Origin: an uncultured Chthonomonas sp.
GTDB taxonomy: Bacteria > Armatimonadota > Chthonomonadetes > Chthonomonadales > Chthonomonadaceae
Reading direction: 5' to 3'
NCBI GenBank assembly: GCA_903859705.1
Contig: CAIONQ010000174.1
Span: 1-42,108 of the forward strand
DNA length: 42,108 nt
Both the position numbers and the translations under genes were made by a program. The notes under the pieces are model-generated. The model made no database searches and was not told the DNA's origin. It worked only from the letters and a program-made list of their open reading frames with translations. Shown here in pieces: positions 1 to 7,446 of this stretch. Each line of letters starts with the position of its first letter. Position 1 is the stretch's first letter.

Positions 1-146
1 ATTGCCTGAACTCCATCTCACAGAAGATTATCGGACAATTCGACGTTGGCAACCAAAATGACTCTATTAAATTCGAAACCAGACCGATATATCAACTACA
101 GGTTCGACAGCCTACGCGCCAATAAGATGCGATAGCCCTGGCATTA
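1..146 (+). other. Broken 5' part of the vWA gene
   Basis: No single frame is open through this stretch, yet pieces look like the N-terminus of the vWA protein that follows. Frame 3 is open from the window edge to a TAA at 123-125 and reads FETRPIY near 72-92. Frame 2 then reads TTGSTAYAPI (95-124), which resembles the metal-binding DxS/TxS loop of vWA domains. Frame 3 resumes at 126 with DAIALAL, the usual first helix after that loop. A second reading is possible: frame 2 ends with TGA at 59-61 overlapping an ATG at 58-60 (ATGA), which could be a preceding gene coupled to a start at 58. Either way the metal-site loop is split over frames, so this is a frameshifted gene or an assembly error. 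Inference from short peptides only. Confidence 0.4.
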
Positions 147-806
147 GTGCGCCGGTGCCTTGAAAAGATCGTGCGCGTAATGTTGCGCCGCAGCATGCGC
201 GGCAACGCAATTAGCCCTCGCTATCACGTATCGATGATAGCATACAACGAGGATGTCGAAGATCTGTTCGGCAAGGTGTGCAGCATATCTGAATTGGAAA
301 GCATGCGCATTCCAACGATTACCCCGGCTGGAAGAACAAACACAGAAGCTGCTTTTGCCGCTGCTCTTCAGTATTTACGGCATTATGAGCACGAATTCCA
401 GGATGGTCCAGCTCCGATGGTGTGCCACCTTACCGACGGTGAGATTAACGAAGGATCAACGAACTTGACGGACATATGTAACGAAATCCGTTCCATTTCT
501 AACCGTGATGGATCCACTCTCATTCAGAATATTTACATTGGCGATAGCCTTCTGCGCACCCCCATTGGGGACGCACGAACGTGGCCAGGAGTATTAGACA
601 GGTCTACAATCAAAGAAACACATGTGCAGCACCTGTACGACATTTCCAGCCCGTTGCCTGAATCCTATGCAAAGGTGCTTGCCGAAACAGAAGGATACTG
701 CCTGCAGCACGGAACTCCTATGCTTATTCCTGCCGAGACACCCGGCATTGTTGAGCTGGCATTCGCGATGAGCGGCGCGACACCATTCAAATCTGGGCGC
801 GATTAA
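147..806 (+). CDS. von Willebrand factor A (TerY-like) domain protein, 5' end disrupted
   Basis: vWA domains bind a divalent metal and mediate protein-protein contacts; TerY-type vWA proteins are often encoded beside PP2C phosphatases and Ser/Thr kinases. This reading gives 219 residues. Visible family features are the strand after helix 1 (YHVSMIAYN, about residues 26-34), the second metal-site motif GRTNTEA (62-68) with its conserved Thr, and the third, HLTDGE (94-99), with its Asp. The first metal-site motif (DxSxS) is missing because the gene starts too late: homology-like sequence continues to at least 126 in this frame, GTG 147 has no ribosome binding site, and the missing motif appears split over frames upstream. 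There is no signal peptide or membrane span, so the protein is cytoplasmic. It lies 20 bases before the PP2C gene, probably in the same operon. The domain call is solid; the true start is unresolved. Confidence 0.75.
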   Translation: MRRCLEKIVRVMLRRSMRGNAISPRYHVSMIAYNEDVEDLFGKVCSISELESMRIPTITPAGRTNTEAAFAAALQYLRHYEHEFQDGPAPMVCHLTDGEINEGSTNLTDICNEIRSISNRDGSTLIQNIYIGDSLLRTPIGDARTWPGVLDRSTIKETHVQHLYDISSPLPESYAKVLAETEGYCLQHGTPMLIPAETPGIVELAFAMSGATPFKSGRD

Positions 807-826
807 ACCACCATCGGAGCACATAA

Positions 827-2182
827 ATGTCCTACAACTCTGAGAACCCTGGATCAGGAATAATCGTTCCAGATCCAGGCTCGCCTGCACCTCAATGGGA
901 TGCGATACAACGTGGCGAAGGTAGCCTTTTCCTGGGATACAGGCGCGCCAGAGAATATGATAATTCTGACGGCGAAGGGCAGGATCGCTGCGCCATAACA
1001 ATTTGCGGGCAAACTGTTATTGCAGTGCTTGCCGATGGCGTCAGCCAGTCTTTCGCCGGGGAGATCGCTGCTTACGCGGTTGTACAAACCGTAACAGAAG
1101 CACTGACTCAGGCAATCAAAACCGCACGGATAGCTGAGTGCTTTGCCCAGATGCCTTTGCTGCTTCAAAGTGCAGCACGGCATTACGCAATCGACGTGCT
1201 GCAGAAACCCCTCCCTGATGAGATTCCTGACATTCGACGAGAACTCCTCGAAGAAATGCGCGTAGGGGGTTCGCAGGCAGTATTCGGCGCATTCTGCTAT
1301 AACATGCGGTCAAAAATGCTAACAGCAGTTCTTCTTGGGGATGTTAGATTACGCTACCTGACACCTGATGGGCCTCAGATGTTGGAGTCTGGCGCTATGG
1401 GTAGATTTACAGTTACCTCGGACCCTAACAGCCCGTTGAATGGTATCGCAGTAACTACTCAGCTGCCCGTTGCTGTTATTGAAAATGTGGAGATGGCGTG
1501 GATCCACAGCGATGGTGTTCCCGATAGCTGGGGTGCCGCGCCCTCAAATCTCTTTGACAGCAACTGTCTGTTAGAGGCGCTTAACCACTGGGCGCGTAAG
1601 GATGATGCAAGTATTGTTGGGTTTGCATCTACGAGCGCGATAAGCTGGGCTGCTCAAAATGAGCCGCCCGTCATATCGGCACCCCCTTCAGAGCCAAGGC
1701 TGCCGTTTGGTTTATCTGTTTCAAGAACACCAAAACCCAACCCAGAGCCCGAAATTGCACATGCAGAAGAACAGCCGCCATTGTATCTTCCGCCCGTAGC
1801 TACGGAGCCTGAGTACAAGTACCAGCCACAAGAAGTCAGACCGACGAAGTCTGCTATACCCCGGCTAACCCTGGAAGCAGTTGCAGGCGTGGCAGTAGTG
1901 TGCTTTGTAATCGGGATAATGATTGGTCGAAACCGCCCACAGGCAGTTGTTCCCGTCCCTACTACCAACAATACCAACTCGAAGCCAGCCAAAGCCAACA
2001 CACCAACGGACCAGAAGGCGCTATCACATCAGCTGCATGAAACGCGAGTTGCCCTGAAAAACAAAGAGTTGATCCAATCCTGTAATTCAAACATCACCAG
2101 TGATTTACAGAGCACCATTGATGCGGCGTCTAGAGCTATCAGCGAATGGAAAGCGGCACATCAAGACGACAAGGACGAGTGA
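827..2182 (+). CDS. Membrane-anchored PP2C-type Ser/Thr protein phosphatase
   Basis: Predicted to remove phosphate from Ser/Thr residues in the cytoplasm. The N-terminal 270 residues carry PP2C landmarks: GQDR (51-54), VLADG (67-71), GDVRL (171-175), HSDGVPD (228-234) and DDASIVGF (259-266). The aspartates at about 53, 70, 229 and 260 fit the metal-binding set. The usual DGMGG is replaced by DGVSQSF, as in the divergent PP2C_2 type. A Pro/Glu-rich linker (280-345) leads to one membrane span (about 349-367), then an exported tail of about 80 residues with two Lys/Gln-rich helical stretches. The catalytic domain is therefore inside and a small domain outside. ATG 827 has GGAG 8 bases upstream. 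It ends one base before the protease gene start, so the two are tightly coupled. No kinase is present in this window; one may lie to the left. Confidence 0.88.
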   Translation: MSYNSENPGSGIIVPDPGSPAPQWDAIQRGEGSLFLGYRRAREYDNSDGEGQDRCAITICGQTVIAVLADGVSQSFAGEIAAYAVVQTVTEALTQAIKTARIAECFAQMPLLLQSAARHYAIDVLQKPLPDEIPDIRRELLEEMRVGGSQAVFGAFCYNMRSKMLTAVLLGDVRLRYLTPDGPQMLESGAMGRFTVTSDPNSPLNGIAVTTQLPVAVIENVEMAWIHSDGVPDSWGAAPSNLFDSNCLLEALNHWARKDDASIVGFASTSAISWAAQNEPPVISAPPSEPRLPFGLSVSRTPKPNPEPEIAHAEEQPPLYLPPVATEPEYKYQPQEVRPTKSAIPRLTLEAVAGVAVVCFVIGIMIGRNRPQAVVPVPTTNNTNSKPAKANTPTDQKALSHQLHETRVALKNKELIQSCNSNITSDLQSTIDAASRAISEWKAAHQDDKDE

Positions 2183-2183
2183 C

Positions 2184-3239
2184 ATGTCGCCAGATCCAGA
2201 TAACAAATTCGCGTCGCTGCCTCCACTTCCCGGCAAAAAGCCCGATCAATCTGCCCCTAAAGCTACGGCCCAGGTGCACAAAGGGAGGTTTGATGCAGCA
2301 CCCCCACAACCTGCCAACCAGCTAAATGCAGTGCCTGTGCAGAAGCCCACGCAAGCGCCGGCTCAGCCGCAGGGTCAAACGAACACAAACACCCAGATTC
2401 CCATATCATTTCCATCCGTGGCGAACCTTAAGTGGATGCAGGCATATGGCAAGTATCTGGCAGCAGGTGTTGCTGCAGCCGTTATTGTATGGATCATAGC
2501 GCGCTCAGGAACAACGGCGGGCGATGGCGGATTAACTACCGATGTACTGGAACGCATTGAGAGTGCTACCGTTTTGATTGAGCGTATGGATCCCAATACC
2601 GGCAAGCCAGCCTTTGTTGCAAGTGGCTTTATTATAGATGGTGGGGCTCATATAGTTACCAACAGGCATGCTGTAGCTGCCTTTGCAGAAGATGCAAGAT
2701 CTGGAACCGTGCGATTTTCAGCCCCCTCTCAATGTACGGTCGTGTTCTTTTCTGGCACACCTCAACAACGGCCAGTATCCGTAGATCCAGGCTCCATCGC
2801 TGTTAAGCCCACAACTCAGGCCTCATTTACTTACGATGACCTGCTTAAGAGCGACCTGGCGATTATCAATGTACCAGCCAGTGTCAAGTCTGAACTGCGC
2901 CTTCCATCACTCACCCTTGGAGATGCATCCCGACTTAAGGAGACCCAGAATGTGTGGCTGTGCGGGTTCCCAATGGCGCTTGCTGGCCTGAATGGTGCAC
3001 CTCCTACGCCATCCGTTCAAAAACACGATATCGTAAACCTTTACCGGGATAGCAGCGGCCAACCCACCATTCTTCAACTTAGTGGTAGCGGCACGCATGG
3101 AAACTCGGGCGGACCGATCCTCACCACAGACGGCACGGTGGTTGGCGTGTTTGATCAGAGAATCGGGAGCCAGGAGTCGCTCACACGCGCCATCGCAACC
3201 CAGTATATTCAGCCATTTGTTACTCAGCTTAATCACTGA
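2184..3239 (+). CDS. Membrane-anchored trypsin-like serine protease with motif-bearing cytoplasmic tail
   Basis: A 351-residue protein with a cytoplasmic, Pro/Gln-rich N-tail (1-80), one membrane span (about 88-106) and an exported trypsin/HtrA-fold domain. The catalytic triad is visible: His162 in TNRHAV, Asp224 in SDLAII and Ser308 in GNSGGP. No PDZ domain follows, unlike DegP/HtrA. I prefer ATG 2184 over longer frames because AAGGA lies 8 bases upstream and because the resulting start MSPDPDNKF matches the starts of the two following proteins. The tail holds KFASLPP (8-14) and RFDAAPP (35-41), the two copies of the motif shared across this cassette. It follows the PP2C stop by one base. 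Likely role: an extracytoplasmic protease tethered to an inner signalling complex; the substrate is unknown. Confidence 0.88.
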   Translation: MSPDPDNKFASLPPLPGKKPDQSAPKATAQVHKGRFDAAPPQPANQLNAVPVQKPTQAPAQPQGQTNTNTQIPISFPSVANLKWMQAYGKYLAAGVAAAVIVWIIARSGTTAGDGGLTTDVLERIESATVLIERMDPNTGKPAFVASGFIIDGGAHIVTNRHAVAAFAEDARSGTVRFSAPSQCTVVFFSGTPQQRPVSVDPGSIAVKPTTQASFTYDDLLKSDLAIINVPASVKSELRLPSLTLGDASRLKETQNVWLCGFPMALAGLNGAPPTPSVQKHDIVNLYRDSSGQPTILQLSGSGTHGNSGGPILTTDGTVVGVFDQRIGSQESLTRAIATQYIQPFVTQLNH

Positions 3240-3317
3240 CAGGTGTAACACAATTTACTAATGCTGTTACTGAATAGGCGTGTGTGTCAGCACTTAAATT
3301 CAGGAGAGATAACTCAC

Positions 3318-4151
3318 ATGTCAGATCCAACTCCGGAAAAGCGATTTTCTGCAGCGCCTCCATTAGCCGCTAAACCAACCCAAACTACATCTACACCGCC
3401 AAAGCCATCCGTGCCGCCGGCATCAAATCCCACTCCCTCCGCCTCGTCTCAGACCGAAGGGCCAGCCTCAAGCAGGTTTTCATCGCCCCCTGTCCCGCTG
3501 GCTGGTAAGAGTCCTTCATCACCAGTTACAACAGTCGCTCCAAAACCCGTGAGCGTCAATACGGCAATACCATCAACACCTAAGCCGCTAACTTCGGCCC
3601 CCACCTTGCCACCAATCATTATGAAGTGGGCCCCGCAACTCGCCGTCGTATTGGTTGTGTTCTGCATTATTGGGTTTGTGCTCAAAGGCTCTCATGGTGA
3701 CGTTACCACGCCACCTCCCCCAAAAAATGATGAGCTAAGAATTCAGGCAGAGCATAACATAGCCACTATTTTGAAAACGGAAGACCAATTGCTTGCTTCG
3801 CGACAATCAGACGATAAGGGTGTAACAGCAGAAGATTGTCAGGGCGTAATGTCGGAGCTGGGCTCGGTTAGCAGTTCAAACTGCATTCCAGATACACAAT
3901 CTGCCTTCCAGCACTACAAAGAGTCGTGGAATGAGTTGCAAAGCTCTATCTACGCTTTAGACAATTGGGTGAAAGATCATAAAACAGGGGCAACTCTTAC
4001 AGAAGCTATCTTGCGAACGATGAACGGCTCCATCGTTGGCATGGGAGCAGACATGATACATGAGCACTCGGCCCTGGTAAGCCGCATCCGCAACGCTGAA
4101 AGTGCCGTAAGAACAGCCGAGAACAGTGTGCTTTCCACACTTAAGAACTAG
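3318..4151 (+). CDS. Single-pass membrane protein with [KR]F-PP tail and exported helical domain
   Basis: No known family recognised. The 277-residue product has a Ser/Thr/Pro-rich cytoplasmic tail of about 100 residues, one membrane span (about 106-124), and an exported, mainly helical domain with two cysteines (in EDCQG and SNCIP) that could pair. The tail contains RFSAAPP (9-15) and RFSSPP (53-58), matching the motif in the neighbouring protease and the following protein. ATG 3318 is chosen over an upstream in-frame start because AGGAGA lies 10 bases before it and because MSDPTPEKRF aligns with the starts of its neighbours. The many Ser/Thr-Pro sites in the tail could be phosphorylated and reversed by the PP2C; this is inference. 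It lies 78 bases after the protease gene. Confidence 0.8.
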   Translation: MSDPTPEKRFSAAPPLAAKPTQTTSTPPKPSVPPASNPTPSASSQTEGPASSRFSSPPVPLAGKSPSSPVTTVAPKPVSVNTAIPSTPKPLTSAPTLPPIIMKWAPQLAVVLVVFCIIGFVLKGSHGDVTTPPPPKNDELRIQAEHNIATILKTEDQLLASRQSDDKGVTAEDCQGVMSELGSVSSSNCIPDTQSAFQHYKESWNELQSSIYALDNWVKDHKTGATLTEAILRTMNGSIVGMGADMIHEHSALVSRIRNAESAVRTAENSVLSTLKN

Positions 4152-4216
4152 ATTTTTCAGGGGACAACTCTGGCTATACATGCCAGGTTCCATCTTCACA
4201 TATAGGAGACACATTA

Positions 4217-4900
4217 GTGACACAGGACCCTAACAACCGGAAGCAGGAAAGATTTGGTGCCCCGCCACCTTCAACGCCAAAGCCTTCTGGCGCTGCATCT
4301 CCCGCTCCGGGCGCATCGAAGTTTGTAGAAGAGCCTACCATACCAACACCTGTTGAGCCGCCAAAAGCACGGCCGACAATCGTTGCTGAGACAGCAAAGT
4401 CAGGTTACTCTCCACGATCCTCCAGCGCACCCCAAAACGCAATGCCCTGGGTATTGGCAGCAATTATCCTGGTGCTCTCATTTGTTCATCACAATTCACA
4501 GGCCAATGAGATTGCCGAATTGAAAAAGCTAGACGAGCAAACGAAAGCCGAACTGCAGATCACACATGCCGCCGCGGAACAACTCAAAACTGAAAATGCG
4601 AGCCTGCAGGACCAGTTGGATCAGGCAAACAGGCCACAGGCAGAAGTGCTGGTCAATTTTATTAAGCCAGTATTTGGCAACGGCTACTACGCAAGGGTTG
4701 TCAACACTGGAAGCTCAACCTTGGTGTACACAACACGCATTACCAGGCCATCCACTGGTACTGGTAAAACCTGGACCCTTACTATCGACGCAGGCCGTTT
4801 CACGGATATTGGGGAACAGGAGGGATGGGCTTTTATCTCCGGGGATACCATTACGGTTACGCAGAGCAATCACAAGGCGTACACATTATCATTGCGATAA
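4217..4900 (+). CDS. Single-pass membrane protein with [KR]F-PP tail, coiled coil and exported beta domain
   Basis: Unrecognised family, 227 residues. Order: Pro-rich cytoplasmic tail (1-74), membrane span (about 77-92), coiled coil rich in Glu/Leu/Lys (about 95-140), then a C-terminal domain with alternating strand-like segments (142-227: VLVNFIKPVF, GYYARVVNT, TLVYTTRI, KTWTLTI) that looks like a small beta-sandwich. The tail has RFGAPPP (12-18) and a weaker KFVEEP copy (35-40). Start is GTG 4217 with AGGAG 8 bases upstream; the N-terminus VTQDPNNRKQERF repeats the DP...RF pattern of the two preceding genes. It closes the cassette; the next gene is a phosphoketolase after 179 bases. The exported coiled coil plus beta domain suggests a sensor or oligomer scaffold, which is inference. 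Confidence 0.8.
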   Translation: MTQDPNNRKQERFGAPPPSTPKPSGAASPAPGASKFVEEPTIPTPVEPPKARPTIVAETAKSGYSPRSSSAPQNAMPWVLAAIILVLSFVHHNSQANEIAELKKLDEQTKAELQITHAAAEQLKTENASLQDQLDQANRPQAEVLVNFIKPVFGNGYYARVVNTGSSTLVYTTRITRPSTGTGKTWTLTIDAGRFTDIGEQEGWAFISGDTITVTQSNHKAYTLSLR

Positions 4901-5079: not shown

Positions 5080-7446
5080 ATGCAAAGCTATCCAATTACT
5101 GATAATGAAATTGCGCTGATTGATCGTTACTGGCGTGCAGCAAACTTCCTGTCTGTTGGGCAGATCTATCTCCGCGATAATCCCCTGCTTTCTCGCCCCC
5201 TGGAGCTATCTGATGTCAAGCAGATGCTGCTTGGCCACTGGGGAACAACTCCAGGTCAGAACTTTATTTATGCGCACCTTAACCGCGCCATACGGCTTCA
5301 TGATCTGAGCGTTATCTATATTTCTGGCCCCGGCCATGGTGGCCCCGCTCTGGTTGCCAATACCTACCTCGAAGGCACATACAGCGAGGTATATCCCAAC
5401 ATCAGTCAGGATACCGAGGGACTGAAACGGCTGTTTAAACAGTTCTCATTTCCCGGCGGAATCCCCAGCCATGTGTCCCCGGAGTGCCCCGGCTCTATTC
5501 ATGAAGGTGGCGAACTGGGATACTCCCTTAGCCACGCTTTTGGGGCTGTACTGGATAACCCGGATTTGATTGCAGCATGCATTGTTGGCGATGGTGAGGC
5601 CGAAACTGGCCCGCTTGCCACGGCATGGCATTCAAACAAGTTTTTAAATCCTGCCAACGATGGAGCGGTGTTGCCGATACTGCACCTGAATGGCTTTAAG
5701 ATTGCGAATCCCACAGTACTGGCGCGCATTCCTCACTCTGAACTGGAAGCATTGCTAATAGGTTATGGCTGGCATCCACTATTTGTTGAGGGATCAGACC
5801 CTGTGCCGATGCACAAAGCACTGGCTGCTGCTCTGGAAACGGCATTTCAGGAGATTGCCGACATCCAGAAACAGGCGAGAACTTCCGATACGTTTGAACG
5901 GCCCATATGGCCAATGATAGTCTTTCGCTCTCCCAAGGGCTGGACGGGACCAAAGTTTGTTGACGGCAAGCAGGTGGAGGGTGCGTTCCGATCTCACCAG
6001 GTACCGATACCCAGCCCGTATTCCCACCCGGAGAACCTTAAGCTCATCGAAGAATGGCTGCTGAGCTATCGGCCTTCCGAGCTCTTTGATGCAGAGGGGC
6101 GCCTGCTGCCCGAGCTTGCAGCTCTCGCGCCCTCGGGCGAGCGCCGAATGGGTGCCAACCCGCACGCTAATGGCGGTGTACTTCTGCGTGATCTGCGGAT
6201 GCCAGATTACCGGGCGTACGGAATAAATGTAAGTGAACGCGGTGTAACTGGTCCGGGCGATACTCATGTGCTTGGCAAATTTATTCGTGACGTAATCCGC
6301 GTCAATAATGATAGCAAGAATTTTCGTGTATTTGGCCCGGATGAAACGCTCTCCAATGGGTTGGAAGCGGTGATGGAAGTTACTAACCGGCAGTGGCTTG
6401 CGCAGACCATGCAACAGGATGAGTCTCTTGCGCAATCCGGCCGAGTGATGGAAATGCTGAGCGAACACCAGTGTGAAGGCTGGCTGGAAGGCTACCTGCT
6501 CACTGGCAGACATGGCTTTTTCAACTGTTATGAGGCCTTTATCCACATTGTTGATTCCATGTTCAACCAGCACGCAAAGTGGCTCAAAGTTACAAACGAC
6601 ATTCCATGGAGGCACAAAATTGCCTCTCTTAACTACCTGCTTTCATCGCACGTATGGCGTCAAGATCACAACGGCTTTACTCATCAGGACCCAGGGTTTG
6701 TTGATCTTGTTGTGAATAAAAAAGCCAGCATCGTTCGAGTATATTTCCCGCCAGATGCAAACTGCCTGTTGTCCGTTGCAGACCATTGCCTTCGCAGCCG
6801 CCACTACGTGAATGTTGTTGTGGCTGGCAAGCACCCTGCCCCACAGTGGCTAAGCATGGATGAAGCAGAGCAGCACACCGCAAATGGGATTGGAATATGG
6901 GAGTGGGCCAGTACAGATAATGGCATGTCGCCAGACATAGTTATGGCGTGCTGCGGCGATGTGCCAACACTCGAAACATTGGCCGCGGTTTCAATATTGC
7001 GTGAGCATCTACCAGATATCAGAGTACGCGTTGTGAATGTTGTAGACCTCATGAAGCTTCAGCCCAGTTCAGAACACCCACATGGCCTTTCAGACCGTGA
7101 CTTCGACGAGATATTTACAACTGACAAGCCTGTAATATTCGCATTTCATGCATACCCCTGGCTCATTCATCGGCTTACATATCGCCGAACCAATCACGAC
7201 AATTTCCATGTCCGAGGATACAAAGAAGAAGGAACCATTACCACAGCCTTTGATATGACAGTTCTAAATGAGCTCGATAGGTATCACCTGGTTATGGATG
7301 CTATGGATCGGCTGCCCCAAACAGGAGAAGTTGGACTGGCGCTAAAACGCGAGCTAAAAGACAAGCTATTCAAGCATAAACAGTACATTGATGAAAACGG
7401 CATTGATACGCCAGAGATAAGAAACTGGAAGTGGAATCAACTATAA
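5080..7446 (+). CDS. xfp: Xylulose-5-phosphate/fructose-6-phosphate phosphoketolase
   Basis: Thiamine-diphosphate enzyme that splits xylulose-5-P (and often fructose-6-P) with phosphate into acetyl-P plus glyceraldehyde-3-P (or erythrose-4-P), giving a carbon-conserving route to acetyl units. At 788 residues it has the family's normal length. Landmarks are GPGHGGPA near residue 85, the [16 protein letters not shown] segment near 150, the ThDP-binding GDGEAETGP near 170, [11 protein letters not shown] near 418 and [12 protein letters not shown] near 480. No gaps or broken motifs are visible. ATG 5080 follows GAGGTG by a few bases. It stands alone between the signalling cassette and an orphan gene, so it is probably transcribed by itself. 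Confidence in the family is very high; the balance between the two sugar phosphates cannot be read from sequence. Confidence 0.97.

Follow-up and report, generated by a model that had tools for sequence, protein, structure and literature searches.

TerY-P-like triads, in which genes for a vWA protein, a Ser/Thr kinase, and a PP2C phosphatase lie together, are widespread. To our knowledge, little has been established about the signals that they receive and the responses that they produce. For the biology of these systems, three reports are relevant here: TerY-P acts against T7-like phages (PMC7699616); its make-up includes OB-fold variants and doubled vWA genes, one of them with a degenerate MIDAS (PMC11090510); and sets of a kinase with a transmembrane (TM) segment, a PP2C, and a vWA protein occur near GAP1-N2 GTPases in actinobacteria (Kaur et al., PMC7159879). 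Kinase control of an ECF sigma factor has been described for PknS-EcfK (PMC13147305).

In this work, we analyzed a locus from an uncultured Chthonomonas sp. whose genome is available as 6.24 Mb in 179 contigs. The window, i.e., the whole stretch of DNA analyzed, is contig C174 in full (42,108 nucleotides). Five genes in this window form the latter half of a larger bacterial signaling locus, whose products include two sensor-like vWA proteins and which was cut in two by a transposon. Our leading interpretation, held with middling confidence, is that the reunited cassette encodes a membrane-organized and very divergent TerY-P-type Ser/Thr module with a tethered protease and two tail proteins, which probably reports to a sigma/anti-sigma pair.

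Reconstruction of a transposon-split locus

The initial annotation described five same-strand genes starting at position 58. All five are real and consecutive (Table 1), but the first is a 3' vWA fragment rather than a whole gene. The start at 58 was misplaced because the first 140 bases form one end of a mobile element with six copies in the genome; the ATG at 58 lies inside this end, and its frame stops after approximately 25 codons. The four ORFs that follow are genuine, lie on one strand, and are tightly spaced. These four have ribosome-binding-site-like sequences, and their likely starts differ slightly from those in the mechanical ORF list.

Bases 1-140 recur at or near the ends of contigs C17, C21, C59, C154, and C77, with different DNA after each copy. 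A search with the other end of the element, taken from C55, found six left ends in the genome. In every case, the final 10 bases of a left flank are found in one, and only one, of the six right flanks. Given this unique pairing, C55 adjoins C174 across one copy of the element, whose termini are imperfect inverted repeats; the duplication at this join is GCATTAGTGC. The join also fits the positions of ackA and xfp, which are adjacent in relatives and here lie on C55 and in the window, respectively; the presence of the motif [KR]Fx(2-3)PP on both contigs; and the open frame with a regained DKSES that results when the element is removed. A frameshift or sequencing error in the vWA gene, our first idea, was dropped in favor of an insertion with target-site duplication.

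The assembly was broken at six copies of this one element, and the 10-bp duplications name six contig joins: in addition to C55-C174, these are C157-C21, C133-C59, C59-C154, C107-C17, and C103-C77. The element carries a 41-aa transposase-like end that may be ISAs1-like; no match for this end was found in NCBIfam and plasmid searches.

When C55 is read toward the window, ackA is followed on the opposite strand by genes for an HX3CX2C single-TM anti-sigma-like protein and an ECF-type sigma factor, then on the forward strand by vWA1, the kinase, and the start of vWA2. Beyond the element, the remainder of vWA2, PP2C, the protease, orphan proteins 1 and 2, and xfp follow in the forward direction. 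The Ser/Thr kinase that the initial annotation had sought upstream is thus present on C55, joined through the 10-bp target duplication. No gene for the MoxR-type ATPase proposed as an alternative was found in C55 or in the cassette, and no vWA-MoxR ternary system (MoxR AAA+ ATPase, VMAP/iSTAND) was recognized within the 12.6 kb of C55 or the leading 12 kb of the window.

Table 1. Features at the start of the window (coordinates of contig C174). Membrane topology is predicted from hydropathy and domain order.
Feature	Position	Strand	Evidence
Mobile-element right end, terminal ...TAAGATGCGATAGCCCTG; outside the cassette, contains ATG 58	1..140	+	Repeats at or near contig ends; divergence from 141
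10-bp target-site duplication GCATTAGTGC	141..150	+	Identical 10 bp close the chromosomal flank of the element left end on C55
vWA2 (TerY-like), 3' part	141..806	+	PADLOC TerY E=2.4e-10; frame open across empty site; motifs
PP2C-like phosphatase; Pro-rich linker, TM ~1871-1927, predicted outside tail	827..2182	+	PP2C_2 E=1.1e-4; motifs; triad-PP2C profile
TM trypsin/HtrA-like protease; Pro-rich tail, TM ~2457-2513, predicted outside catalytic domain	2184..3239	+	Trypsin_2 E=2.5e-19; HtrA/MarP matches
Orphan tail-TM protein 1; Pro-rich tail, TM ~3627-3683, outside domain predicted all-helical (low confidence)	3318..4151	+	No family match; AF2
Orphan tail-TM protein 2; Pro-rich tail, TM ~4430-4486, predicted coiled-coil helix then beta domain (low confidence)	4217..4900	+	AF2
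xfp phosphoketolase; island flank, ordinary metabolism	5080..7446	+	XFP_N/XFP/XFP_C domains

Interrupted and degenerate vWA genes

In the assembled genome, vWA2 is broken after codon 36 by the element. The empty site is a single open frame for a 257-aa vWA protein with all three MIDAS parts: DKSES (DxSxS), which sits on C55, and the Thr region GRTNTE (330-347) and LTDG (429-440), which are kept by the fragment in the window. The match to the Pfam vWA model is weak (E=0.067) compared with that to TerY (Table 1). Once rejoined, vWA2 is a TerY-like vWA protein with the DxSxS...T...D arrangement that characterizes TerY-P, in a gene that is interrupted as sequenced. The neighboring vWA1 also matches TerY (PADLOC, E=5.3e-8), and its MIDAS is degenerate (DGSEA, GEANTE, and LTTL).

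Because vWA2 is interrupted, the present working state of the system is doubtful; in the sequenced genome it may be off, altered, or decaying, and the population may be a mixture of cells with and without the insertion. The insertion also cautions that the cassette analyzed here is possibly not intact. A stronger version of this idea is that transposition into vWA2 has opened an acquired island that is now decaying or dead and devoid of present function. The degenerate metal site of vWA1 and the lack of homologues of the orphan proteins in the relatives searched (40 and 100, respectively) agree with such decay. However, the reading frames of all the remaining genes are uninterrupted, and their catalytic motifs and initiation signals are preserved; a degenerate second vWA copy is found also in CoCoNuT systems (PMC11090510). 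We regard a dead island as quite improbable.

Relationship of the core to TerY-P

The kinase-like protein keeps the K, HxD...N, and D residues and has a long Pro-rich linker and a hydrophobic C-terminus, for which the TM call is weak. Its PADLOC matches are weak (PD-T4-6, PglW, and STK_OB, the last with E=0.006 and covering residues 152-230 only), and the profile scans of the kinase matched neither an OB fold nor a zinc ribbon. The PP2C has metal-site Asp motifs at 977, 1025, 1331, 1508, and 1598. Its PP2C_2 match is just under the Pfam cut-off, and the PADLOC PP2C model gave no match.

We also scanned 19 locus proteins with profiles of triads from the same phylum. These profiles recognized vWA2 (1e-20), vWA1 (7e-17), the kinase (7e-6), and the PP2C (1.3e-4, the best match of the triad-PP2C profile in this set), and the rest were not significant. 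A search of the phylum with the vWA pair found remote matches in five other genomes, each time with the vWA gene beside a PP2C gene and mostly with a kinase gene. One of these loci, L031, is clearly recognized by PADLOC as a TerY-P triad (TerY E=8e-112, PP2C E=1e-44, and STK_OB E=4e-80). Judging from these sequence similarities, the vWA/kinase/PP2C core is probably a very divergent TerY-P relative that functions alike. We did not file the cassette as a TerY-P member because it falls short in one defining feature: neither an OB fold nor a zinc ribbon was recognized on the kinase. The divergence of the kinase and the PP2C appears so great that their activity is not assured.

Searches for cassette orthologues in other genomes (250 for PP2C, 290 for vWA, 60 for the kinase, 40 for orphan protein 1, and 100 for orphan protein 2) returned remote vWA matches only, and these sit in vWA-PP2C(-kinase) loci. 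There were no matches in plasmid searches with vWA, the kinase, and PP2C or in a GTDB-wide scan with the vWA pair. A second genome with the whole cassette was not found in the genomes, plasmids, and GTDB-wide scan searched.

A tethered protease that recurs with Ser/Thr phosphorylation genes

The protease, for which ATG 2184 is the likely true start, combines a TM segment with a trypsin domain that has the His (2655-2675), Asp (2850-2873), and Ser (3096-3116) motifs of the catalytic triad, as do tethered HtrA/S1C proteases. In the domain scan, the trypsin domain runs to the C-terminus and no PDZ domain was matched.

The closest relatives in Chthonomonadaceae (26-36% identical) are FHA-TM-trypsin proteins. 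In three genomes (G012, G002, and G014), the gene order is STK, FHA protein, FHA-TM-trypsin, small tail-TM protein, PP2C, and FHA-TM protein; the domains of the G012 operon were scanned, and those of the G002 and G014 operons were read by eye. This STK/FHA/trypsin/PP2C locus is repeated in the family (L091:4744-10456, L093:6531-12236, L094:277-6054, and L089:6347-11761, with L089 read in part). A GTDB-wide scan with the protease family found 11 loci, in Chthonomonadaceae and a few remote ones. Among the latter, Heliobacterium mobile has consecutive genes for a TM STK, a trypsin-like protease with a TM segment, and two PP2C proteins (L108:5835-11225, read by eye), and no kinase or PP2C was obvious by eye in the protease loci of Pirellula, Planctomycetota, and Desulfosediminicola (L110, L112, and L111).

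The pairing of a tethered protease with STK/PP2C genes is recurrent, since it is seen in both the Chthonomonadaceae operons and Heliobacterium. These findings bear on two claims of the initial annotation. The proposed link between an extracytoplasmic protease and Ser/Thr phosphorylation gains from them, as tethered trypsin-type proteases occur repeatedly in Ser/Thr phosphorylation operons in Chthonomonadaceae and in at least one case beyond. The statement that the arrangement had no known precedent was too strong and is softened here because of this recurrence; furthermore, the core resembles TerY-P, and kinase-TM/PP2C/vWA sets have been described (PMC7159879; PMC7699616; PMC11090510).

Orphan proteins and a shared tail motif

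Orphan protein 1, preceded by a ribosome-binding-site-like AGGAGAG before ATG 3318, gave a helical AF2 model (pLDDT 49), and orphan protein 2 a model with a helix at 2-61 followed by strands (pLDDT 57). The confidence of both exported-domain models is too low for a fold search. No family and no homologue were found for orphan protein 1 (40 relatives), and no homologue was found for orphan protein 2 (100 phylum genomes).

In the protease and the two orphan proteins, the predicted cytosolic tails start alike (MSPDPDNKFASLPPL, MSDPTPEKRFSAAPPL, and the GTG-started MTQDPNNRKQERFGAPPP). A motif, [KR]Fx(2-3)PP, is present in six copies in four cassette proteins, namely, in the kinase linker, in the tails of the protease (two) and orphan protein 1 (two), and as RFGAPPP in the tail of orphan protein 2. 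Shuffled tails contained a mean of 0.07 copies and a maximum of three in 20,000 shuffles, compared with the six observed, and these statistics overstate significance because the pattern was chosen after inspecting the sequences. No further copy was found among ORFs of at least 150 aa in three stretches of the genome (22,329 aa), and the loci of relatives have three in 112,001 aa of ORFs. Such clustering is unlikely to have arisen by chance. The motif may serve for docking, or it may be left over from duplication of tail-TM segments.

A sigma/anti-sigma pair and the island setting

The sigma factor on C55 is ECF-type (TIGR02937, E=3.7e-19) with matches to Sigma70_r2/r4. The adjacent gene encodes a TM protein with HVSVCRSC (HX3CX2C), to which no Pfam anti-sigma model matched. 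Regions 2 and 4 next to an HX3CX2C membrane protein are the features of an ECF sigma/ZAS anti-sigma pair. The pair is located at L018:2940-4766, divergent from the cassette; the exported domain of the single-TM anti-sigma-like protein appears FN3-like by eye.

This pair, divergent from the cassette, and the HtrA/MarP-like protease with its TM segment raise the alternative of a DegS-RseA-style envelope-stress pathway, in which the protease cuts the anti-sigma protein and the kinase, PP2C, and vWA proteins merely tune the response. A Ser/Thr kinase can also act directly on an ECF sigma factor (PMC13147305). We consider this pathway unlikely as the main function, given that the protease lacks a PDZ domain, the cleavage site is purely putative, and the sigma pair is encoded on the other strand. 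Being transcribed the opposite way, the sigma/anti-sigma genes could also be an unrelated pair.

ackA and xfp are adjacent in several relatives, and in G025 their order and strand match those in the present genome, with ~36 bp between them. In the Chthonomonas sp. analyzed here, they are separated by ~9.5 kb, with the element excluded. No counterpart of the anti-sigma-like protein was detected in 40 relatives, which is consistent with its arrival together with the island. As for xfp itself, the nearest relative is in G025, from another family of the order (75%, compared with 70% within the same genus), and horizontal transfer is possible.

The island-like place between ackA and xfp is also relevant to a defense role, which the initial annotation had raised and which is possible by analogy only. 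In such an anti-phage, TerY-P-like island, the core would sense infection, and membrane effector functions would fall to the tethered protease and the tail proteins. The anti-T7-like-phage activity of TerY-P (PMC7699616) and the PADLOC matches (TerY, and weakly STK_OB, PD-T4-6, and RT-Protease) are in line with this scenario, but no nuclease, NTPase, or other known effector lies alongside and the neighbors are metabolic. Moreover, the protease probably faces outward, and its nearest relatives are conserved in Chthonomonadaceae FHA loci that look more like housekeeping signaling. Taken together, an anti-phage island seems improbable.

Proposed mechanism and significance

The domain and TM assignments support the membrane-tethered vWA/PP2C/protease signaling put forward in the initial annotation. 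The most likely function, in which we have about as much confidence as doubt, is an envelope-sensing complex that ties extracytoplasmic proteolysis to Ser/Thr phosphorylation, with a possible sigma output. The exported helical, beta, and protease domains would sense or process something at the envelope, and the membrane-anchored kinase and PP2C would set the phosphorylation state of the cytosolic tails or their partners. The soluble vWA proteins may build the complex, possibly by gripping the tail motif. As output, the protease might clip the anti-sigma protein, or either the sigma factor or its anti-sigma might become phosphorylated. The gene content, the join, the catalytic and tail motifs, and the homologies are observed directly, whereas topology, assembly, sensing, and output are inferred. 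A more specific and distinctly tentative proposal is a membrane "signalosome," in which vWA adaptors on the repeated motif gather the kinase, phosphatase, outward protease, and two sensors and control the ECF sigma factor; if true, this would be a new route for coupling envelope proteolysis to Ser/Thr phosphorylation. A membrane-tied version of a TerY-P-like triad, equipped with an outward protease, docking-like tails in common, and a sigma/anti-sigma pair close by, provides concrete candidates for the input (exported domains), the wiring (tail motif), and the output (sigma).

Comparison with known systems

As in TerY-P triads, genes for vWA, PP2C, and kinase proteins lie together in this locus, and same-phylum triad profiles recognize all four core proteins. 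Differences are found in the kinase, which in TerY-P has a zinc ribbon or OB fold and here ends with a Pro-rich linker and hydrophobic tail, in the TM segment of the PP2C, in the added protease and tail-TM proteins, and in the order vWA-kinase-vWA-PP2C. Type III-A CoCoNuTs (PMC11090510) likewise have two TerY-like vWA genes, one with a full and the other with a degenerate MIDAS; however, the gene between them here encodes a kinase and not an ATPase, and there are no McrB/nuclease genes. The GAP1-N2-linked sets (PMC7159879) share the membrane kinase, neighboring PP2C, and standalone vWA, whereas no GAP1-N2 GTPase or FNIII-repeat partner was recognized at the cassette.

For the protease, DegS/MarP-type enzymes have a similar TM anchor and outside trypsin/HtrA-like domain, but the protein found here has no PDZ domain, one TM segment, and a long Pro-rich cytosolic tail. 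The Chthonomonadaceae STK-FHA-TM-trypsin-PP2C-FHA-TM operons have phospho-signaling enzymes, a TM trypsin of the same clade, and a small tail-TM protein in common with the cassette. In those operons, an FHA domain replaces the Pro-rich motif tail, vWA is absent, and the kinase and PP2C are canonical. What is new in the present locus is the motif [KR]Fx(2-3)PP that is common to the kinase linker, the protease, and both orphan proteins.
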